A stretch of DNA of 64,000 nucleotides. Origin: Gemella morbillorum. Lineage in GTDB: Bacteria; Bacillota; Bacilli; Staphylococcales; Gemellaceae. The DNA lies in assembly GCF_900476045.1 (NCBI RefSeq), contig NZ_LS483440.1, positions 930,001-994,000 on the forward strand, given 5' to 3'. Every line of letters begins with the position of its first letter. Positions within the stretch are counted from its first letter, which is position 1. The translations under genes and the position numbers were made by a program. The notes under the pieces are model-generated. The model had not been told where the DNA came from, searched no databases, and was given only the letters and a program-made list of their open reading frames with translations. Shown in pieces: positions 23,405 through 61,170 of this stretch.

Positions 23405-23758
23405 TTATTCTTCTTCTTTTTGACTTACACTTGCAATTAGACTTTCAATATGTAAAGCATACTCAGCTGTTTTATCATATTCGAAAATCAATTCTGGAAA
23501 CTTACGAATCTTTATTTTTTTAGCAACTTCGCTTTTAACGAATCCTTTTATTTTTTTAAACGATTCTTTAGTTTTTTCTTTTTCGCGTTCTCCACCTAGA
23601 ACTGTGTAGTACACTTTTGCTTGAGAATAATCTCCTGTCAAAGTTACTTCTGTAACAGTAACAAATCCTAAATCATGATTTTTAACTTTTGTTGCTAAAA
23701 CATAAGTAATTTCTTTTTTGATTTGTTCTGCAAGTCTATTAACTCTTAATTCTGACAT
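23405..23758 (-). CDS. rbfA: Ribosome-binding factor A
   Basis: 30S maturation and cold-shock factor, 117 residues, KH-like fold. MSELRVNRLAEQIKKEITYV, VTVTEVTLTGDYSQAKVYY and the late ELIFEYDKTAEYALHIE match RbfA. Thirteen bases after infB; last gene of the rimP-nusA-infB operon. truB and rpsO, which often follow, are absent here. Confidence 0.96.
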   Translation of the reverse strand: MSELRVNRLAEQIKKEITYVLATKVKNHDLGFVTVTEVTLTGDYSQAKVYYTVLGGEREKEKTKESFKKIKGFVKSEVAKKIKIRKFPELIFEYDKTAEYALHIESLIASVSQKEEE

Positions 23759-23770
23759 TAGTTTCTCCTC

Positions 23771-25837
23771 CTATTTTTTTACTTCTTCCATGATGTAAAC
23801 TTCAAAGACATCTCCTTCTTTAATATCATTAAAGTTTTCAACAGTCATACCGCATTCATAACCACTTTGAACTTCTTTTACATCATCTTTAAATCTTCTT
23901 AGTGTATCAATTTCACCTTCGTAAATTACAACACTATCACGGATTACACGTACTTTACCATCACGAGAAACTTTACCTTCTGTAACATAAGCACCAGCGA
24001 TTGTTCCAATTTTTGATACTTTATATACTTGACGAACTTCTGCAAGACCTATTACTTTTTCTACAAATTCTGGATCTAATAATCCTGTCATAGCTGCTTC
24101 GATTTCTTCGATTACTTTATAGATAATACTATGTAAACGAATATCTACTTGTTCAGTTGCTGCCATTTGCTTAGCGTTATTATCAGGACGAACGTTGAAT
24201 CCAATTACTACGGCACTAGATGCAACAGCAAGAGTAATATCAGATTCATTGATTGCTCCTACTCCAGTGTGGATAATACGCACGTTGACACCTTCTACAT
24301 CAATTTTCGCTAATGACATGGCAAGTGCTTCAACTGAACCTTGAACATCTGCTTTTATAATAATGTTAAGATCTTTCATCTCACCTTGTTTCATTTGTTC
24401 AAATAGCGTATCAAGTGATACTGCTGAGTTAGCTTGACGTGTAGTTTCAATATATTGTTGTTGACGTTTTTCTCCAATTTGACGCGCTGTTTTTTCATCA
24501 CCGAATACTACAAAACGATCTCCTGCATTTGGTACGTCTTGAAGACCAGTTATTTCTACTGGTGTAGATGGTTTAGCAGTATGGATATTTTTACTACGAT
24601 CGTTAATCATAGCACGAACACGCCCGTATGTATTACCTACTACTAACGGATCTCCTACATTAAGAGTACCATTTTGTACTAGTAATGTTGCAACTACTCC
24701 ACGCCCTTTGTCAAGTTTAGCTTCAATGACAGTACCTAGTGCTAGACGGTTTGGATTGGCTTTTAACTCTTGCATTTCTGTAACTAATAAAATATTTTCT
24801 AATAGTTCATCAATACCCTCACCTTTCAGAGCTGAAATAGGAACAAAGATTGTATCTCCACCCCACTCTTCAGAAATAAGTCCATATTCTACAAGTTCAT
24901 TCATAACTCGGTCTGGATTTGCTTGAGGTTTATCCATTTTATTAACAGCAACAATAATAGGTACATCTGCTGCTTTAGCATGGTTAATAGCTTCTATTGT
25001 TTGAGGCATTACCCCATCATCAGCAGCCACTACTAAAATTGTTACGTCAGTAATTTTTGCTCCACGTGCACGCATAGTTGTAAACGCAGCGTGTCCTGGT
25101 GTATCTAAAAATGTAATTTTCTTATCTTTAGTACGAACTTGATAAGCACCAATATGTTGAGTGATACCCCCTGCTTCTCCTGCAGTTACACGTGTGTTTC
25201 TAATTGTATCTAATAAAGTTGTTTTCCCATGGTCAACATGCCCCATTATTGTAACAATTGGAGCTCTTTCTTTAAGATTTTTTTCTTCATCTTCAACTTC
25301 AAAGTATAAATCTAAATCTTCTTTATTGATTTCTACTTCTTCTTGAATTTCTTTTCCATAATCCATAGCAATTAATTCAATTTGCTCTAAAGTAAGAGAT
25401 TGATTGATATTTGCCATAATTTTAAGTTCCATAAATAACTTTTTAATTAATTCAGTTGAATTTACTGATAGTACTTCTGAAAGTTCTCCTACGGTCATAC
25501 CATCTCTTACTAAGATAGTGTCTTCTGAAATTGTTTCTTCTGTAGGTGCTTCAATAATTGCAGGCTGCTGTTTATTAGATTTTTTATTTTTTTCTTTTTT
25601 ATTTTTTTTCTTTTTATGTTTTTTAGTATCACTTTGATTTTTATTACTAGCAACTTTTTCTGCTTTTGGTTCTTCTTTTTTAGCTTTGAAGATGCTATCA
25701 AGTTTGGCTAACCCCTCTTCCGTTAACATTGACATATGGTTAGACACTTCAATTTCAGATTCTCTTAAAACTTTAATTATATCTTTTGACTGTTTACCAA
25801 TCTCTTTAGCATATTCATATACTCTGACTTTTTTCAT
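23771..25837 (-). CDS. infB: Translation initiation factor IF-2
   Basis: GTPase that delivers initiator tRNA to the 30S subunit. N-terminal IF2-N segment ([18 protein letters not shown]), a short Lys-rich linker, a second IF2-N repeat around 110-160, then the G domain with [14 protein letters not shown] (G1), DTPGHAAF (G3) and NKMD (G4), and domains II-IV. At 688 residues it is a little shorter than Bacillus IF-2 because the linker is reduced. Overlaps ylxQ by one base. Confidence 0.97.
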
Positions 25838-26148
25838 TACAATCTTCCTCCTTCTTCTAATAGTTGTTTAAACTTTTTTATAAACCCATCATCAGTCATA
25901 CCAAGTGCGACACGATTATCTCGTCCAATTGCTCTACTTATATTTTCAATATCTGAAAATTCGATGTGATTAACACCATAAAACGTCGCTTTATCTATCA
26001 ATTTTTTCTTTGTATTAATACCGCAATCTTGTGCTATGACTAATAATTTTATCTTTTTATTCTTTAAATTTTTTGTGATTAAATCTTCGCCTGTTATAAG
26101 TTTACCTGCTCTTTGCATTAAACCAAATAAATTATATATTTTTAACAT
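25837..26148 (-). CDS. ylxQ: L7Ae-family ribosomal-like protein YlxQ
   Basis: A 103-residue L7Ae/L30e fold protein: [39 protein letters not shown] and [16 protein letters not shown]. YlxQ proteins bind kink-turn-like RNA; the cellular role is unsettled. Shares single-base overlaps with rnpM upstream and infB downstream, so it is embedded in the operon. Confidence 0.92.
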
Positions 26149-26435
26149 TATTTTTGTGGAATAGACTTTCTATATATTAATCTAATTACTTCGTTGTAAA
26201 TAGGCTCCATAATTTCTGGAGTAGTTGAAAAGAATTTCTCAAGTAATTTTTTATCTTTTGCATTATTAATTACTTCCAAATCTGATACAACATATGCTCC
26301 GCGCCCAGCTTTTTTTCCTGTTGGATCTACCGAAATTTCTCCTTCTTTATTTTTTACTATTCTTAGTAAATCTTTTTTCGGAAACATCTCGTTGGTTAGT
26401 ATACATTTTCTTGTTGGTATTTTTCTTTTTTTCAT
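26148..26435 (-). CDS. rnpM: YlxR / RNase P modulator RnpM
   Basis: A 95-residue DUF448 protein: RKIPTRKCILTNEMFPKKDL, then VDPTGKKAGRGAYV, the family hallmark. In Bacillus the protein has been linked to RNase P RNA binding. Follows nusA by 12 bases and overlaps ylxQ by one. Confidence 0.92.
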   Translation of the reverse strand: MKKRKIPTRKCILTNEMFPKKDLLRIVKNKEGEISVDPTGKKAGRGAYVVSDLEVINNAKDKKLLEKFFSTTPEIMEPIYNEVIRLIYRKSIPQK

Positions 26436-26447
26436 CTTAACACCTCA

Positions 26448-27479
26448 CTACTCAGCTGCTTTAATGTCAATTTTCCATCCAGTTAATCTTGCTGCTAAGC
26501 GAACGTTTTGACCTTTTTTCCCTATTGCAAGAGATAGTTGATCTTCTTTAACTTTAACATTAGCAATTTTTTCTTCTTCATCTATAATGATTTCTTCTAC
26601 TTTAGCAGGTGCTAATGCATTAGTAATAAATTTCACAGGATCAGCATCCCATGTAATGATATCAATCTTCTCACCGTTTAATTCATCAACGATACGATTA
26701 ACACGGTCTCCTTTATTACCTACACATGCACCAACTGGATCAACATTTTTGTCTTCTGAAAAAACGGCAAGTTTAGTTCTTTCGCCAGCTTCACGAGACA
26801 CACTCTTAATTTCTACTGTTCCACTATAGATTTCAGGAACTTCCATTTCGAATAATCTTCTAATAAATTCAGGATGTGATCTAGATGCCAGAACATGCGG
26901 CTTACTACCACGGCTTGGGTTATCTACTTTAGCTATATAAACTTTTATAGGTGTTTGTGGTACATAATTTTCACCAGGAACTCTTTCATTCTCTCCTAAA
27001 ATAGCCTCAATTTTTCCAAGTTTCACATATACATAGCGTGTATCAATTCTGTCTACAGTACCTGAAAGGATTTCTCCTTCATATTCACTATATTCTTTAA
27101 ATAAGATTTCTTTTTCTGCTTCACGAAGTCTTTGTAATAGCGCTTGTTTAGCTGCTTGAGCTCCAACACGACCAAAGTCATCTGGAAGATCTACTACCTC
27201 ATAGATATCACCAACTTCATACGCTGGATTTATTTTTAATGCATCCTCTAAAGCAAATTCAATTCTATCATCATATACTTCTTCTACAACATCTTTTCTA
27301 ATGATAAATTTATAATCACCTGTAGCACGATTAAAATCTACTCTTACATTCTTTGCAGCGTTAAAATTCTTTTTGTATGCTGATAATAGAGCTAATTCAA
27401 TAGCTTCTACTAGTATATCTTCTGCAATACCTTTTTCTTGTTCAATTAATTTAATAGCTTTAAGCAAATCCTTGCTCAT
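26448..27479 (-). CDS. nusA: Transcription termination/antitermination factor NusA
   Basis: RNA polymerase-bound pausing factor. N-terminal domain, then an S1 domain (GEILSGTVDRIDTRYVYVKLG) and two KH domains (VDPVGACVGNKGDRVNRIV and LAIGKKGQNVRLAARLTGWKID). It ends right after KH2 at residue 343, the compact Gram-positive form without acidic repeats. Central gene of the rimP operon. Confidence 0.97.
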   Translation of the reverse strand: MSKDLLKAIKLIEQEKGIAEDILVEAIELALLSAYKKNFNAAKNVRVDFNRATGDYKFIIRKDVVEEVYDDRIEFALEDALKINPAYEVGDIYEVVDLPDDFGRVGAQAAKQALLQRLREAEKEILFKEYSEYEGEILSGTVDRIDTRYVYVKLGKIEAILGENERVPGENYVPQTPIKVYIAKVDNPSRGSKPHVLASRSHPEFIRRLFEMEVPEIYSGTVEIKSVSREAGERTKLAVFSEDKNVDPVGACVGNKGDRVNRIVDELNGEKIDIITWDADPVKFITNALAPAKVEEIIIDEEEKIANVKVKEDQLSLAIGKKGQNVRLAARLTGWKIDIKAAE

Positions 27480-27500
27480 TGTTCTTTTCTCCTTTAAAAA

Positions 27501-27965
27501 TTAAAATTTAACAGCTAATCTAATCTTAGCAATTTTCTCATAACTAATTGTTGATTTCTTTACTCTTGCTTTATCTTTATATTCAATAGTAATTTCTTTA
27601 TCTTCAACATCTAAGATGTCACCATAAAATTCTTTCTGGTTATCTACCTTCTCATAAGTTTTGATATATACATGCTTACCTATTGAATCGATAACTTCTT
27701 CCAGATTTCTTAACTCACGTTCTATACCTGGTGAAGAAACTTCAAGATAATACTTGTCGCTTATAAAATCCTCTTTATCCAATTCTTCTGCTAGTTTTTC
27801 ACTTAGAAGTACACAATCATCTAGTGTTAAACCACCATCTTTATCGAAGTAAATGCGTAAGAAGAATTCACTACCTTCTTTTACATATTCTACATCATAA
27901 AGTGAATATACTGTATCTTTTGTTTGCTCATCTGCAATAGCTTTTACTCTTTGTACTATACTCAT
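27501..27965 (-). CDS. rimP: Ribosome maturation factor RimP
   Basis: 30S maturation factor. I start at ATG 27965 (MSIVQRVKAIADE), with GAAAGAGGTG just upstream; a longer reading to 28031 would translate through the leader hairpin and is rejected. The 154-residue product has LRIYFDKDGGLTLDDCVLLSEK, YYLEVSSPGIERELR and the C-terminal SH3-like part. First gene of rimP-nusA-rnpM-ylxQ-infB-rbfA. Confidence 0.95.
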   Translation of the reverse strand: MSIVQRVKAIADEQTKDTVYSLYDVEYVKEGSEFFLRIYFDKDGGLTLDDCVLLSEKLAEELDKEDFISDKYYLEVSSPGIERELRNLEEVIDSIGKHVYIKTYEKVDNQKEFYGDILDVEDKEITIEYKDKARVKKSTISYEKIAKIRLAVKF

Positions 27966-28000
27966 ATTACACCTCTTTCTTAAATCTAAAATTGCAATAT

Positions 28001-28031
28001 AAAAAAGTGGAGAACTTTCAAAATTCACCAC
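28001..28031 (-). terminator. Terminator-like hairpin in the rimP leader
   Basis: On the minus strand GTGG-T-GAA (from 28031) pairs with TTC-T-CCAC (ending 28007) with one T-T mismatch, followed by TTTTTT (28006-28001). It lies between the rimP promoter and rimP, starting roughly 25 bases after the expected transcript start, so it looks like an attenuator rather than a terminator of the upstream gene. Confidence 0.7.
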
Positions 28032-28061
28032 CCTTTCGGTAATTTATTTCAATGTAGTTAC

Positions 28062-28090
28062 ATTGTATCACAATAAATAAGAGAAATCAA
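28062..28090 (-). promoter_or_regulatory. Promoter of the rimP-nusA-infB operon
   Basis: On the minus strand TTGATT (28090-28085), 17-base spacer, TACAAT (28067-28062), just after the glyoxalase stop codon. Confidence 0.75.
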
Positions 28091-28100
28091 TTAATTTGTC

Positions 28101-28481
28101 TTACTTATCACGAATAACTTCAATCTTATATCCATCTGGATCTTTGATAAAGTAATAACTTGGCGGGAATCCTGGTAAACCTTTTAAATCTGTAATATCG
28201 TATCCTGCCTCTTTATGTTTCTCATATAAACCTTCTAAATCAGAAACTGAAATTGCAATATGACCGTAACCATCTCCTAAATCATATGAACCATGATCAT
28301 AATTATAAGTTAACTCTAATTCATAATCAGAACCTGGTAAAGTCAAATATACTAAAGTAAATTTATATTCTTTAAAATCTCTTTCTCTACTTACTTTAAA
28401 ATCAAATGCTTCCGTATAAAACTTAATTGATTTTTCTAAATCAGCAACTCTATAACAAGTATGCGCCATAGTTTGAACCAT
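28101..28481 (-). CDS. gloA: Lactoylglutathione lyase (glyoxalase I) type VOC protein
   Basis: Vicinal-oxygen-chelate protein of 126 residues closely resembling GloA. All four metal ligands are present: His7, Glu56 (ELELTYN), His74 (GYGHIAISV) and Glu121 (GYKIEVIRDK). The enzyme detoxifies methylglyoxal; since Firmicutes often lack glutathione, a different thiol cofactor is possible. GAGGTGAG ribosome site. Located between degV and the rimP promoter. Confidence 0.9.
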   Translation of the reverse strand: MVQTMAHTCYRVADLEKSIKFYTEAFDFKVSRERDFKEYKFTLVYLTLPGSDYELELTYNYDHGSYDLGDGYGHIAISVSDLEGLYEKHKEAGYDITDLKGLPGFPPSYYFIKDPDGYKIEVIRDK

Positions 28482-28502
28482 AATCTCACCTCAAAAATCT
28501 TT

Positions 28503-29366
28503 TTATAATATTGTCCACGCAAAACCTATAGCTCCAATCCCAAGATGAGTTGATACTACAGGAGTAATTGCGTCTATTTCGACATTAACATTAGGATAAA
28601 CTTCTTTCATATAATTTTTAATTTCTTCCGCCTTCTCTAAAGCATCTACATGAAGAATACATACAGATATGTTTTCATCCTTGTGTTGTCGATAAAATTC
28701 ATCAAATAATTCATAAATTCTTAATACAACTTTTTTATAAGTACGTATTTTTTGGAATGGTACGATTACCTTATCCTCAAAATGTAATAAAGGTTTAACT
28801 TGTAATAAGTTACCAACTATAGCCTGTGCACCGCTTAAGCGCCCACTACGTTGTAAGTGTGATAAGTCATCAGCCATAAAATATGCTTTTGAAACTTTTT
28901 TCATTTCATCTAATGCAGTAATAATTTCTTTAGAACTCTTACCTTCTTTTATTAGTCCAGCCGCTTTAATTGCATAATATCCTTCAGGATGACATGCAAC
29001 TTCTGAATCAAATGGATGAACATTAATACCATCAACCATAAGATCAGCTACAGAGTATGATGAAAATGTTCCACTTATACCACTAGATAGTGCTATAGCA
29101 ATAACATCTGTATAACCTTCTTCTTTTAATTTTTCTAAGCATGAAACAACTTCCCCAATTGCTGGTTGAGAGGTTGTTGGAAAAGAATTATTAGGATCCT
29201 TTAAATAATCATAGTATTTATCAAGAGGCATATCAATAACCTCTTTATAAGAATTTCCATCAATAACTATATTTAAATAAACCGTTCTAATATTTAATTC
29301 TTTTGTTAATTCACCTGGTAAATATGCTGTCGAATCCATTACAATAGCTATTTTTTCCACACTCAT
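28503..29366 (-). CDS. DegV family fatty-acid-binding protein
   Basis: DegV/FakB-type lipid carrier (287 residues). Motifs IVMDSTAYLP, FPTTSQPAIGEV, IALSSGISGTFSSY, LSHLQRSGRLSG and THLGIGAIGFAW are all present. Related FakB proteins hand fatty acids to the FakA kinase; no fakA is near. The ATG has a poorly spaced AGTAGGT; the GTG six bases downstream (29360) would be better spaced and may be the true start. Confidence 0.9.
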   Translation of the reverse strand: MSVEKIAIVMDSTAYLPGELTKELNIRTVYLNIVIDGNSYKEVIDMPLDKYYDYLKDPNNSFPTTSQPAIGEVVSCLEKLKEEGYTDVIAIALSSGISGTFSSYSVADLMVDGINVHPFDSEVACHPEGYYAIKAAGLIKEGKSSKEIITALDEMKKVSKAYFMADDLSHLQRSGRLSGAQAIVGNLLQVKPLLHFEDKVIVPFQKIRTYKKVVLRIYELFDEFYRQHKDENISVCILHVDALEKAEEIKNYMKEVYPNVNVEIDAITPVVSTHLGIGAIGFAWTIL

Positions 29367-29396
29367 ACCTACTATTTTACAATAGCTTTTCCTTTC

Positions 29397-29942
29397 CTAG
29401 AATTTTTCAATATTATACAGTTCTAATTCAACTTTTGTTTCTCTACCCATAAGTTCGATCATTACATCTGCTTTGTAGTTATTAAGGTCTATATTCACCA
29501 CTTTACCTTCCATATCTACAAATGGCCCAGAAATAACACGAACATGGTCTCCTACTTCGATATCTACATCAACAACGCTTGAAAGCCCCATTTGTTGTAA
29601 AATAAAATTGATTTCTTCTGGAAGTAATGGACTTGGTTTTGAACCCCCACCATGTGAACCTACAAATCCAGTTACACCTGGTGTATTTCTAACTACAAAC
29701 CAAGAGTCATCAGTCATAACAAGTTCAACTAGAACATATCCAGGGAAAGTTTTTCTATTTACTTCTTTTCTTTTTCCTGTTGGTGTTATAATAGTTTCTT
29801 TTTCTTCTGGAACAACAATTCTAAATATTTTATCTTCCATATTCAAAGATTCAACACGTTTTTCAATATTATCTTTTACTTTATTTTCATAACCAGAGTA
29901 TGTATGAATTACGTACCACTCTTTGTTTACTGTATCACTCAT
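29397..29942 (-). CDS. nusG: Transcription termination/antitermination protein NusG
   Basis: Elongation factor bound to RNA polymerase clamp. NGN domain begins EWYVIHTYSGYENKVKDNIE and contains FPGYVLVELVMTDDSWFVVRN; the C-terminal KOW motif is GDHVRVISGPFVDMEGKV. Length 181 is typical. Follows secE by 11 bases. Confidence 0.97.
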   Translation of the reverse strand: MSDTVNKEWYVIHTYSGYENKVKDNIEKRVESLNMEDKIFRIVVPEEKETIITPTGKRKEVNRKTFPGYVLVELVMTDDSWFVVRNTPGVTGFVGSHGGGSKPSPLLPEEINFILQQMGLSSVVDVDIEVGDHVRVISGPFVDMEGKVVNIDLNNYKADVMIELMGRETKVELELYNIEKF

Positions 29943-29953
29943 AATAACCTCTC

Positions 29954-30127
29954 TTACTTACTAAAATGTCTAATTCCAGCAGTTATTCCTAAATCTACCA
30001 CATAACTGAACAACATTAATATTCCTACAACTACTATAACTATAAGAGTTTTTCTAACAAGTTCGTTAAATGTTGGCCAACTTACTTTTTTCATTTCTGA
30101 AACAACTTTTTTTAAAAATCTTAACAC
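29954..30127 (-). CDS. secE: Preprotein translocase subunit SecE
   Basis: A 57-residue single-span SecE. The codons read VLRFLKKVVSEMKKVSWPT, the conserved amphipathic helix and KKVSWPT motif, then a hydrophobic span (TLIVIVVVGILMLFSYVVD) and a short tail. Start is a GTG at 30127 with AGAGGAG 9 bases upstream. SecE stabilises SecY in the Sec channel. secE-nusG is the standard pair; rpmG, which precedes secE in Bacillus, is not seen in the 259 bases upstream. Confidence 0.93.
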   Translation of the reverse strand: MLRFLKKVVSEMKKVSWPTFNELVRKTLIVIVVVGILMLFSYVVDLGITAGIRHFSK

Positions 30128-30179
30128 TAGTGAATTCTCCTCTCATACAAATTTAATTCTTTCATTGTACATTTTATAA

Positions 30180-30188
30180 ATTATACCA
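30180..30188 (-). promoter_or_regulatory. Extended -10 promoter of secE-nusG
   Basis: On the minus strand TGG followed by TATAAT, ending at 30180; the -35 region is weak. About 53 bases before the secE GTG. Confidence 0.5.
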
Positions 30189-30310
30189 TAGCACAATTCA
30201 TAAATCTATAAAATTTCAAATAAAAATAAGTACACTTGTACAATATATTATTGTAACATTTATTAAGAAACTTTTCAAATATATATCTTAAAATTGCTAA
30301 ATAAACATTT

Positions 30311-30376
30311 AAAAATCTTGAGAGAAATATATTTCAATAATTGTATTACAAAATTATATTTATTATTTCTCTCAAG
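30311..30376 (-). terminator. Terminator after folD
   Basis: CTTGAGAGAAATA (30317-30329) pairs with TATTTCTCTCAAG (30364-30376), a perfect 13-bp stem with a 34-base loop. On the minus strand ATTTTTAAA follows. Ends the pheS-pheT-plsY-folD run. Confidence 0.8.
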
Positions 30377-30386
30377 AAATACTTAT

Positions 30387-31235
30387 TTATTTTATTAAAT
30401 CATATGTTGCTACCAAGGTGTTTCTCATTAACATAGTAATTGTTAATGGCCCAACCCCACCAGGCACTGGAGATATGTACTTAACTTTCCCCATAAAGTT
30501 TTCAAGATTTACATCTCCAACTAACTTGCCATCTTTGTAGTTATTACCTACATCAATAATAGTAACTGTTTCTTTTACTTTTTCTTCTCCAGTTAAAAAG
30601 TGTGCAGAACCCACACAACTAACAATAATATCAGCTTGTTCTAATAAACTATCAAGATTTTTAGTTTTTGAGTGTGCTGTTATCACAGTTGCATTATTTT
30701 GAAGCAATAATGTAGATATAGGTTTTCCTACAATATTACTTCTTCCTATTACTAATGCTAACTTTCCATCAATTTCATCACCAGTAGATTTTATCATTTC
30801 TAAAATACCAAGAGGTGTACATGGAATTAGTTTTGCTTCTCCAATAACTAACTTTCCTACATTAATAGGATGAAAACCATCAACATCTTTTTGCGGGCTT
30901 ACCGCATTTAAAATTTGTTCTGCATCGATATGTTTAGGTAATGGTAATTGAACTAAAATACCATGTACATTATCATCATTATTTAATTTCTCAATTTCAT
31001 TTAAAAGGCTAGCAGTAGAAATATTTTCATCTAATTCTATTTTAACAGAATTAATGTTATTTTCTAAACATGCTTTATGCTTTGAATTAACATAACTTTT
31101 AGAAGCCTTATTATCTCCTACTAAAACTACCGCTAACGTTGGAATTATACCTTTTTGTTGAAGAATTGTTGCTTCTTCTTTTATCTCAGCGCGTAATTTT
31201 TTAGCAAGATCAGTACCGCTTATAATTTTTGTCAT
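30387..31235 (-). CDS. folD: Bifunctional methylenetetrahydrofolate dehydrogenase/cyclohydrolase FolD
   Basis: One-carbon metabolism enzyme converting 5,10-methylene- to 10-formyl-THF. Signature KSYVNSKHKACLENNI with the catalytic Lys, VQLPLPKHID, KDVDGFHPINVGKL, VIGRSNIVGKPIS and the terminal PVPGGVGPLTITML. Length 282. Start overlaps the plsY stop by one base. Confidence 0.97.
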   Translation of the reverse strand: MTKIISGTDLAKKLRAEIKEEATILQQKGIIPTLAVVLVGDNKASKSYVNSKHKACLENNINSVKIELDENISTASLLNEIEKLNNDDNVHGILVQLPLPKHIDAEQILNAVSPQKDVDGFHPINVGKLVIGEAKLIPCTPLGILEMIKSTGDEIDGKLALVIGRSNIVGKPISTLLLQNNATVITAHSKTKNLDSLLEQADIIVSCVGSAHFLTGEEKVKETVTIIDVGNNYKDGKLVGDVNLENFMGKVKYISPVPGGVGPLTITMLMRNTLVATYDLIK

Positions 31236-31846
31236 TATTTTTTCCTTCCTAATCTCAATTTTGCTTTAGATTGATTTTCCGTACCATTCAATAATCTTTG
31301 AATATTTTTCTTATGCATATATATAACAAAAATACACATTACAATCATAACCCACTTATCAACACCTGTTTCAAAAATAGCTAAGTAAACTATAGAAGTT
31401 AAACAGATTAAAATACTCCCTAAAGAAACATATCCAGTGATAAATAGTGTTGAGAAAAATATTACAAGTAAAAGTGCGCTCAAAGCTGGATAAAGAAAAA
31501 TAAATACTCCTGAGCCAGTTGCAACTGCTTTTCCTCCTTTAAAGTTTGCAAAGATAGGATAAACATGTCCTATCATTGCAAATGCTCCAAAAATAGAGAG
31601 AAATTCTACTTTTCCTAGACTTAACGTAGGTAAAAACGTTGCAAAAATTCCTTTAGATATATCTAAAATAAACACCATGACTCCTGCTTTTTTTCCAAGA
31701 CATCTAAATGTATTTGTTGTTCCTAAATTTCCGCTCCCCATAGTACGAATATCTGTATTATAAAATAGTTTCCCAATAATTAAAGCAAATGGGATAGCAC
31801 CTATTAAATATGCAATAGCACAAAACAATAAAACTTGTGTAATCAT
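31235..31846 (-). CDS. plsY: Glycerol-3-phosphate acyltransferase PlsY
   Basis: Integral membrane enzyme that acylates glycerol-3-phosphate from acyl-phosphate, first step of phospholipid synthesis. About five hydrophobic segments; the three catalytic loops are seen as MGSGNLGTTNTFR, HVYPIFANFKGGKAVATGSG and the late MHKKNIQRLLNGTEN. Length 203. Lies eight bases after pheT. Confidence 0.95.
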   Translation of the reverse strand: MITQVLLFCAIAYLIGAIPFALIIGKLFYNTDIRTMGSGNLGTTNTFRCLGKKAGVMVFILDISKGIFATFLPTLSLGKVEFLSIFGAFAMIGHVYPIFANFKGGKAVATGSGVFIFLYPALSALLLVIFFSTLFITGYVSLGSILICLTSIVYLAIFETGVDKWVMIVMCIFVIYMHKKNIQRLLNGTENQSKAKLRLGRKK

Positions 31847-31854
31847 ATATTCTC

Positions 31855-34248
31855 CTATCTTATTATAGCTCCATACTCTGTCAACGCTGCAAGAACTTTT
31901 TCATGAACAGCTGTTACTTCTTCATCAGTTAATGTTTTTTCTTTATCGCTATATGTAATTGTTAATGCTAGAGACTTTTTACCAGCCACTAATTCTAAGC
32001 CTACATATAAGTCAAATAATTCTATATTTGTTATTAATTTACTATTTACACTTTCGATTGCATTATAAATATTTTGATATTCATCTTCCAAATCAACTAG
32101 CATCGCAATATCACGAGTTATTTCAGGATACTTAGTTACTTCTTCATACTTAGGTTTTACTTTTTCTTCTGAAATAACTTTATCTAAATTAATTTCAAAA
32201 ACATAAGTTCTATTAAGTCCAAGTTTCTCAGCTACTAATGGATGCACTTCTCCAATTAATCCAATGCGCTCTTCTCCTAAATATACTTCAGCTGTACGCC
32301 CTGGGTGCATTCCGTCAACTGTTACCTTTTTATATGTTACTTTCTGATCTAAACCTAGATATTCTAAAGCAACTTCTAAATAACCTTTTGCTGCATAAAA
32401 ATCTAATTCTCGACTATCTTTTAACCATTTTGTAGCTCTTTCTTCTCCAGCTAAAGCAGCACTAAGATAAAGTGTTTCCTTGGGTTGAACATTATCATCT
32501 CCGCTTCCGAAGAAAACTCTCCCAATTTCTATAAGTTTTAAATCCTTTTGCTTACGAGCCACATTATATCCAATTGTATTCAATAATCCTGGTATTAAAC
32601 TTTGGCGAAGTGTTGAATGTGTTTCTGTCATTGGCATTAATAATTTTACTTTATGATGATTTTCTAAAGTAAAACTTGTTGATTCTTCATCAGATACCAA
32701 TGAATAATTAATTGTATCGTTAAAGCCAGCATTAACATACAATCTACGTAAATCACGAACAGCACGTTGTGTATAAGTTAAACCACCTTTTGTTGTTCTT
32801 GAGAATTTTGGTAATGTGGATGCCAAATTATCATAACCATAAATACGAATAACTTCTTCTACTAAGTCTTGCTTAATTGTGATATCTGGACGTCTTGTTG
32901 GTACTTTTACTATTAATTCTTCAGCAGCTACTTCTACACCAAAGTTCAAACTTTCTAAAATAGAAATAATTTCCTCTGTTGATAAAATAATACCTAAATA
33001 ATTATTAATGTATGTTGTCGTAATAGCTACTTCTCTTTCTTGTTCTTTATTAACTACACCTACCGAAGATTCTACAGTAGCATTTGGACATAATTCCAAA
33101 ATTAATTCTACTGCACGCTGTAAGGCTGCAAGTTGCATATTAGAGTCTATTCCTTTTTCAAAACGTGCTGATGAATCACTTCTTAATCCATGAGCAGCTG
33201 AAGTACGACGTATACTTGACGAATTAAAGTATGCAGATTCTAAAATTATATTTTTAGTACTTTCGCTTACTTCTGTATTTTTTCCACCCATAACTCCACC
33301 TAAAGCTATTGGCTGTTTCCCATCTGTAATAACTAAATCTGTATCTTGTAGTTTACGTTCTACTCCATCAAGAGTTTCTAATACTTCTCCTTCTTTTGCA
33401 TCACGTATAACTATCTTATCTCCCACTAAATCTTTATCAAATGCATGCATCGGCTGACCGAACTCTAAAAGAACATAGTTAGTTATATCTACAATATTGT
33501 TAATTGGACGAATACCCGAACTCATAAGGCGAACCTGTAGCCATAATGGTGAATCTTTCACTTCTATATTTTTAATCACTTGTCCTAAATAATTTTTACA
33601 AGAAGGACTTTCTACCTCTACAGATAAAGTAGTTCCTTTATAATTTTCCGCTACTTCTTTATCATTAAAAGTTACAGCCTTATTATATAAAGCTCCTAAT
33701 TCATACGATAAACCACGCATACTTAATGCATCAGCTCTATTTGGTGTAATTGATAGGTCTAATATATAATCATTTAAACCTAGTACCTCTGATACATCCG
33801 CTCCCAATTCTTGTTTTTCTCCAAAAGTATAAATACCATCTTGATAATTTTTAGGGATTACACTTTGATTTAATCCAAGCTCTTTAAGCGAACAAATCAT
33901 CCCTTGTGATTCTACTCCACGAAGCTTAGCTTTTTTGATTTTGATTCCTGGTAGTTTTGCTCCAACTTTTGCTACAATAACATATTGTCCAGCATCTACG
34001 TTTGGTGCACCACATACGATTTGAAGATTTTCCTCTTCTCCTACATTTACCTGACATACGCTTAATTTTTCTGCATCTGGATGTTTTTCTTTCGATTCTA
34101 CATAGCCTACCACTACATTAGATAATTCCTCAGCTAAGTAATCTACTCCTTCTATTTCAATACCACCACGAGTAATTTTTTCTGCTAAATCTGCAGCATT
34201 ATCTTCTACATTTGTATATTGTTTTAACCAATTATAACTTACTAACAT
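31855..34248 (-). CDS. pheT: Phenylalanine-tRNA ligase beta subunit
   Basis: 797-residue beta chain of the heterotetrameric PheRS. Domains in order: N-terminal OB-fold tRNA-binding domain (VVVGYVESKEKHPDAEKLSV), the B3/B4 editing module (RADALSMRGLSYELGALY), B5, the catalytic-like core and the C-terminal anticodon-binding FDX-ACB domain (YPEITRDIAMLVD). Twelve bases after pheS and under the same T-box. Confidence 0.97.
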   Translation of the reverse strand: MLVSYNWLKQYTNVEDNAADLAEKITRGGIEIEGVDYLAEELSNVVVGYVESKEKHPDAEKLSVCQVNVGEEENLQIVCGAPNVDAGQYVIVAKVGAKLPGIKIKKAKLRGVESQGMICSLKELGLNQSVIPKNYQDGIYTFGEKQELGADVSEVLGLNDYILDLSITPNRADALSMRGLSYELGALYNKAVTFNDKEVAENYKGTTLSVEVESPSCKNYLGQVIKNIEVKDSPLWLQVRLMSSGIRPINNIVDITNYVLLEFGQPMHAFDKDLVGDKIVIRDAKEGEVLETLDGVERKLQDTDLVITDGKQPIALGGVMGGKNTEVSESTKNIILESAYFNSSSIRRTSAAHGLRSDSSARFEKGIDSNMQLAALQRAVELILELCPNATVESSVGVVNKEQEREVAITTTYINNYLGIILSTEEIISILESLNFGVEVAAEELIVKVPTRRPDITIKQDLVEEVIRIYGYDNLASTLPKFSRTTKGGLTYTQRAVRDLRRLYVNAGFNDTINYSLVSDEESTSFTLENHHKVKLLMPMTETHSTLRQSLIPGLLNTIGYNVARKQKDLKLIEIGRVFFGSGDDNVQPKETLYLSAALAGEERATKWLKDSRELDFYAAKGYLEVALEYLGLDQKVTYKKVTVDGMHPGRTAEVYLGEERIGLIGEVHPLVAEKLGLNRTYVFEINLDKVISEEKVKPKYEEVTKYPEITRDIAMLVDLEDEYQNIYNAIESVNSKLITNIELFDLYVGLELVAGKKSLALTITYSDKEKTLTDEEVTAVHEKVLAALTEYGAIIR

Positions 34249-60960: not shown

Positions 60961-61170
60961 AAAAAAGACTGGTAATTAATACCAGTCTAAAACCAAAACA
61001 CCGTAGTTACTTACTAAAATTGGTCCTGATATAATCAGGTGGGTACAATAGTCTTACCTTCTAAAGTCTTCTCTAAGAAGCGTTTTATACTAATAAAAAA
61101 TTCTTGTTCCCTTTTAAAAAGTGTTAGGCCCGAATGTATGGTAAGTCTTACAAATGTTTTAGTATTCTAT
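60961..61170 (-). ncRNA. ssrS: Probable 6S RNA
   Basis: A gene-free minus-strand transcript of about 205 bases with its own promoter and a Rho-independent terminator (AGACTGG/CCAGTCT then T6). The ends pair: ACTAAAACA near the 5' end with TGTTTTGGT before the terminator, then ACTTAC with GTAAGT; a small CCTGAT/ATCAGG hairpin sits in the 3' strand of the resulting central bubble, as in 6S RNAs. Position upstream of tcdA/yrvM equals that of Bacillus 6S-1. No covariance search was done. Confidence 0.65.

Follow-up and report, generated by a model that had tools for sequence, protein, structure and literature searches.

The idea of an attenuator ahead of the rimP-nusA operon is already in print for relatives of Gemella. 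Naville and Gautheret (2010, PMC2965389) describe the "rimP-leader" as the most ubiquitous attenuator and favor NusA as its effector, with RimP mentioned as another possible regulator; the parts of that paper devoted to the element stress a GGGc...gCCC stem motif, a distance of 4-130 nt to the gene, and no larger conserved element. For nusA in B. subtilis, autoregulation through termination in the leader is established, as summarized in the relevant portion of a review (PMC12288461), with NusA-stimulated intrinsic termination in the 5' leader setting readthrough. In S. agalactiae, the RNA-seq account of gbs0413-gbs0418 (PMC4448216, in its section on this locus) reports that RNAs of two sizes, short and long, arise from a single start; the short RNA ends 31 nt after it and upstream of rimP-nusA-infB, in a short leader for which an intrinsic terminator is predicted, and NusA feedback is proposed. 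Distal interruptions of the U tract are given as a trait of NusA-dependent terminators in the pertinent passages of PMC8060035. Our literature search on Gemella, NusA and terminator found no paper.

Here we describe the corresponding leader of Gemella morbillorum, which shares with the rimP-leader, as far as that account goes, a short terminator hairpin and U stretch directly upstream of rimP-nusA-infB. The Gemellaceae element is a divergent, family-specific variant and, judging from its sequence and by analogy with the systems above, most likely acts as a rimP-nusA transcription attenuator with negative feedback by NusA.

Promoter and hairpin ahead of rimP

The window, a stretch of 64,000 nt, is part of a 1.76 Mb genome and carries the rimP-nusA-infB operon downstream of the hairpin, with a promoter upstream of the terminator and nusA in the same gene cluster, which is the layout of a NusA-autoregulated attenuator (Table 1). 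The closest named relatives of its RimP are those of Gemella haemolysans, G. sanguinis and G. cuniculi (83-86% identity). Elsewhere in the window lies a 6S RNA (60986-61168, minus strand; Rfam RF00013, 73.3 bits).

Table 1. Features of the rimP-nusA leader, its putative operon and the genes upstream, in coordinates of the window.
Feature	Coordinates	Strand	Details and basis
Promoter	28062..28090	-	-35 TTGATT 28090-28085, 17-nt spacer, extended -10 TG-a-TACAAT 28070-28062
Predicted 5' end and single-stranded leader ACATTGAAATAAATTACC	28038..28055	-	start ~28055 inferred from the -10
Terminator hairpin	28001..28037	-	arms GAAAGGGUGG / CCACUUUUUU, U.U mismatch, inner GAAUUU/AAGUUC, U tract 28006-28001; from the fold
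rimP, operon gene 1	27501..27965	-	Pfam RimP_N and RimP C-terminal SH3 domain
nusA, operon gene 2, proposed feedback effector	26448..27479	-	Pfam NusA_N and NusA-like KH
ylxR	26148-26435	-	Pfam
L7Ae-family gene	25837-26148	-	Pfam
infB	23771-25837	-	ORF; named from reading the translation, without family search
rbfA	23405-23758	-	ORF; named from reading the translation, without family search
Glyoxalase-family gene (gloA-like), upstream	28101-28481	-	Pfam
degV, upstream	28503-29366	-	Pfam

An earlier note, made from the letters of this DNA, had placed a GTGG-GAA/TTC-CCAC hairpin with T6 about 25 bases into the transcript and 35 bases before rimP. Both the letters and the minimum free energy fold bear out the hairpin: on the minus strand, GTGG (28031-28028), T (28027) and GAA (28026-28024) are answered by TTC (28014-28012), T (28011), CCAC (28010-28007) and T6 (28006-28001), positions 28027 and 28011 forming a U.U mismatch. 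The leader folds as a single hairpin spanning 28037-28001 (-14.1 kcal/mol, z -2.8; equalled by 2 of 200 shuffles), and a fold that includes the stretch up to rimP gives z -2.1 (6 of 200 shuffles equally good). Because AAAGGGUGG additionally pairs with CCACUUUUUU, the stem is longer than noted and begins about 18 nt past the predicted start, so that the figure of 25 fits GTGG and not the full stem. The distance to the gene was correct, with T6 ending at 28001, 35 nt ahead of the rimP ATG at 27965, and the Shine-Dalgarno sequence AAAGAGGTG lies immediately upstream of rimP.

A consensus terminator scan of 24000-34000 does not list the hairpin, probably because it wants a mismatch-free stem, and Rfam 15 returns no attenuator family for 27900-28150 at gathering or relaxed thresholds, the only hits being three below threshold with E values up to 5 (lncRNA, snoRNA and miRNA families); for six order-level leaders there were two hits below threshold with E values up to 1 (mt-tmRNA, lncRNA). 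A consensus promoter scan of 24000-34000 finds 48 promoters against 48.7 in shuffles, which is chance level, with the operon promoter scoring 9 of 12; transcription is predicted to start near 28055, 7 nt past the -10. By itself the hairpin is a moderate signal, and it is conservation that decides its reality.

Conservation and covariation in Gemellaceae

In the search for relatives, rimP was recovered from 60 of 60 genomes, 15 of which are Gemellaceae (nine of the genus, counting that of the window, and six of a sister genus). Left out of the counts were four named Gemella records (L031-L034) whose leaders are identical to L002, L005, L006 and L009, as well as L035-L040, which are other loci; of these, L036 shows a GAACGGG-type hairpin, and no hairpin of this type is visible in the stretches of L035 and L037 viewed. 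Promoter and hairpin with U tract are present, with rimP downstream, in all 15 Gemellaceae. The promoter keeps the architecture TTGA[T/C]N, a 17-nt spacer (18 nt in one genome), TG and TANNNT throughout, and sits 23-30 nt upstream of the hairpin arm. The pattern TTGA..-17/18-TANNNT with TG, which was formulated once the sequences had been inspected, occurs in all 15 of the 70-nt stretches before the hairpin against 0.5% of shuffles of those stretches, and in 3 of 500 shuffles of the window's own stretch. Among six Gemella leaders, mean ungapped identity is 0.95 over the 37 nt from 28055 onward, 0.60 across the promoter region and 0.46 for the spacer that follows the hairpin, the latter two values being lowered by indels. 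Conservation thus vindicates the good promoter that had been proposed just after gloA, despite the chance-level consensus scan.

The hairpin-core sequence ACCGAAAGGGTGGTGAATTTTG occurs exactly once per genome in the six genomes searched with two mismatches allowed, and the distance from hairpin to rimP is 23-84 nt in 14 of the 15 Gemellaceae (35 nt in the window), which agrees with the 4-130 nt given for the rimP-leader in the account cited above; the fifteenth, L008 (genome G002), has 688 nt. The extra stretch between hairpin and rimP in L008 contains repeat-like segments by eye.

Lying about 65 nt past the gloA stop codon, the hairpin would terminate the degV-gloA transcript too, and one could read it as merely the 3' end of that transcript, with the operon promoter elsewhere. 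Yet a promoter is situated between gloA and the hairpin, the sister genus retains promoter and hairpin with rimP behind a different upstream gene (read in L010 and L013-L015), and both are intact in L008 despite the 688 nt that separate hairpin and rimP. We consider this reading very unlikely and rejected it, since promoter and hairpin track rimP and not gloA.

Covariation across relatives, which had been proposed as a check of the leader, was assessed on a 13-pair stem in 13 distinct rows. Standard pairs fill 98.2% of the 169 pair cells, a value reached by none of 500 shuffles, whereas slid versions of the stem reach at most 74.8%; the covariation score is 0.225, compared with 0.186 for shuffles, none of 500 reaching it. 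Two of the 13 pairs changed on both sides: one went from G-C to A-U in two rows, the other from A-U to G-C in the single row L012, whose alignment there is uncertain. Five pairs vary on one side. For the count of doubly changed pairs, as for that of pair types, 57 of 500 shuffles score as high, which does not set either apart from shuffled rows. RNAalifold picks the same stem unprompted. The stem is therefore kept through sequence change by its score, with two other measures within the range of shuffles, and conservation together with pair-preserving changes strongly supports the view of the hairpin as an attenuator, a predicted intrinsic terminator before rimP.

Could the conserved region be translated instead? 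In the window, GTG at 28031 is in frame with rimP, an AAAGGG looks like a Shine-Dalgarno sequence, and all 15 Gemellaceae have a GTG at the equivalent place, as part of the stem; a leader peptide, or a RimP extended at its N terminus, might start there, at GTG 28028 or at TTG 28021. The GTG frame, however, reaches rimP in L001 only; the remaining 14 rows meet a stop after 10 to 23 codons. From the TTG, the frame stays open into rimP in L002 and L003 and closes after a single codon in L009 and after 11 to 31 codons in the remaining six Gemella rows; the sister genus does not have it at the equivalent place. With reading frames not conserved, we rejected translation of this region, to which we give next to no credence.

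The stem core in Gemellaceae and other Bacilli

A hairpin at the equivalent place, T-rich thereafter by eye, was found in 43 of the 45 other order genomes and in 48 of 48 sampled class loci (8 supplied and 40 picked from the matches listed), as counted by regular expressions composed after viewing the sequences. The order hairpins take the form GAGTGGG, GAACGGG or near, followed by CCC.., and a GGG..CCC core is present in 43 of the 45 order members and 47 of the 48 class loci (shifted along the stem in L103, one of these). In all 15 Gemellaceae the core reads GG-U...U-CC: its outer pairs correspond to the Bacilli core and the third G-C pair is replaced by the U.U mismatch, after which the 5' side continues as GAA in 12 and GGA in 3, paired with UUC or similar into a further inner stem. 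The GGGc...gCCC motif stressed for the rimP-leader (PMC2965389, in the description cited) is thus absent from Gemellaceae, which have GG-U-GRA...U-CC, and the U.U-mismatched core is the one clear departure of the family from the described element.

Loss of the GGG/CCC core is not unique to Gemellaceae. The two order members unmatched by the scan, L030 and L050, show a GAGCGCA...ACGCTC hairpin by eye, a loss separate from that in Gemellaceae; these are genomes G040 and G038 of family f2, of 1.6 and 1.5 Mb, with a hairpin lacking the GGG/CCC core. Sixteen further class loci were viewed by eye. Eight belong to family f29, perhaps Streptococcus at a guess, which is without the core too: seven have a GGCG..CGCC stem, and none is visible in the 190 nt of L132 viewed. 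Of the other eight, seven have GGG/CCC-type or near stems, and none is visible in L125.

Upstream of the rimP hairpin and past the -10, many Bacilli leaders (L077-L117 and others) carry AATACT; it is present in 15 of 54 non-redundant leaders, against a mean of 1.4 and a maximum of 5 in shuffles. The 54 are still related to one another, and this enrichment is not to be read as a probability. The AATACT stretch, followed by ATAG in several leaders by eye, is reminiscent of a NusA boxC site such as the NusA site of Mycobacterium. ACTCA occurs in 9 of the 54 (shuffle maximum 5 or 6). By eye, it is present before the hairpin both in leaders with a GAGTGGG arm, to which it could pair, and in those with a GAACGGG arm, to which it could not (L019-L024 versus L045-L070), which speaks for protein recognition over pairing. 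As for Gemellaceae, we rejected a boxC-like motif in the leader: within the 28 nt before the arm, AATACT and ACTCA were found in none of the 15, and ATACT in one (L008).

Alternative folds and proposed feedback by NusA

One alternative is an attenuator with an antiterminator. Before the 3' arm exists, the 5' arm GGUGGU..AUUUUGA could pair with upstream UUGAAAU..AUUACC, whose AUUACC lies at 28043-28038, and NusA, RimP, an L7Ae-like protein or a small molecule would shift the balance between the folds. The nascent window RNA does fold as an alternative hairpin at -8.9 kcal/mol; with only the upstream 22 nt shuffled, folds as stable arise in 37 of 1000 cases for the window, 35 for L006 and 7 for L009. 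Five of the nine Gemellaceae rows tested fall at <=0.05 versus 1 of 47 leaders from other families, the latter hand-picked from 91 and given 300 shuffles each with a shorter arm. However, one of the five, L013, uses a different outer helix, and the Gemella rows are nearly identical and make almost one observation. Across the sister genus (L010-L015) shuffles are as stable in 330, 158, 44, 48, 71 and 502 of 1000 cases, leaving L010 and L015 without the alternative fold. Covariation lends it no support, as 74.1% of cells are paired (126 of 500 shuffles as high), the score is 0.084 against 0.087 in shuffles, and a second register shows no covariation either, while the full leader folds as the terminator in Gemella rows (-14.6 to -17.8 kcal/mol). 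We find such an antiterminator unlikely, and regard as similarly improbable that Gemellaceae rebuilt the rimP-leader into a two-state RNA switch. In that case a longer stem with a mismatch, lending its 5' arm to a nascent antiterminator hairpin as well, would have replaced the core that most sampled Bacilli keep, and NusA-stimulated termination would not control the operon alone, unlike in B. subtilis. The B. subtilis autoregulation studied by Mondal et al. 2016 reportedly involves no antiterminator.

A further alternative would keep the hairpin and change its ligand, with RimP or another operon protein, not NusA, binding the conserved stem as RNA-level control. The 5' arm GGUGRAUUU is conserved beyond pairing needs, and RimP is named as a possible regulator by Naville and Gautheret (PMC2965389); the same authors, in the text on this element, nonetheless prefer NusA, and NusA feedback is documented in B. 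subtilis (PMC12288461, in the portion on nusA). We judge this alternative to have a small chance of being right.

We therefore return to attenuation with NusA feedback. The suggestion that the operon may be feedback-attenuated by NusA is very probably right. RNA polymerase would start near 28055, make about 55 nt and meet the predicted intrinsic terminator before rimP, compared with the 31 nt reported for S. agalactiae in the section cited above. A share of polymerases would stop at the hairpin and the remainder read into a presumably co-transcribed rimP-nusA-ylxR-L7Ae-infB-rbfA. Polymerase-bound NusA, as the putative sensor, would aid hairpin formation, such that abundant NusA would raise termination and thereby lower its own supply, a simple negative feedback without antiterminator. 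For B. subtilis nusA, going by the review portion cited, the mechanism was shown by experiment on a leader whose Bacilli core differs from the Gemella stem; for Gemella we infer the same feedback, and its NusA dependence, from relatives by place, architecture and operon. Termination may be weak because of the conserved U.U mismatch and a U tract that reads CUCUUUUAU in 9 of the 15 Gemellaceae (T6 in the window). That concern is tempered by the statement that U-tract interruptions characterize terminators that depend on NusA (PMC8060035, in the passages on this trait), a description that CUCUUUUAU fits and the window's T6 fits less.

A promoter-proximal hairpin before rimP-nusA thus persists in a small-genome family though its supposedly characteristic stem sequence is lost, and its retention without GGG/CCC suggests that a position directly behind the promoter is more important than the GGG/CCC sequence. 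The Gemellaceae stem is a natural variant for testing what NusA requires at a terminator.
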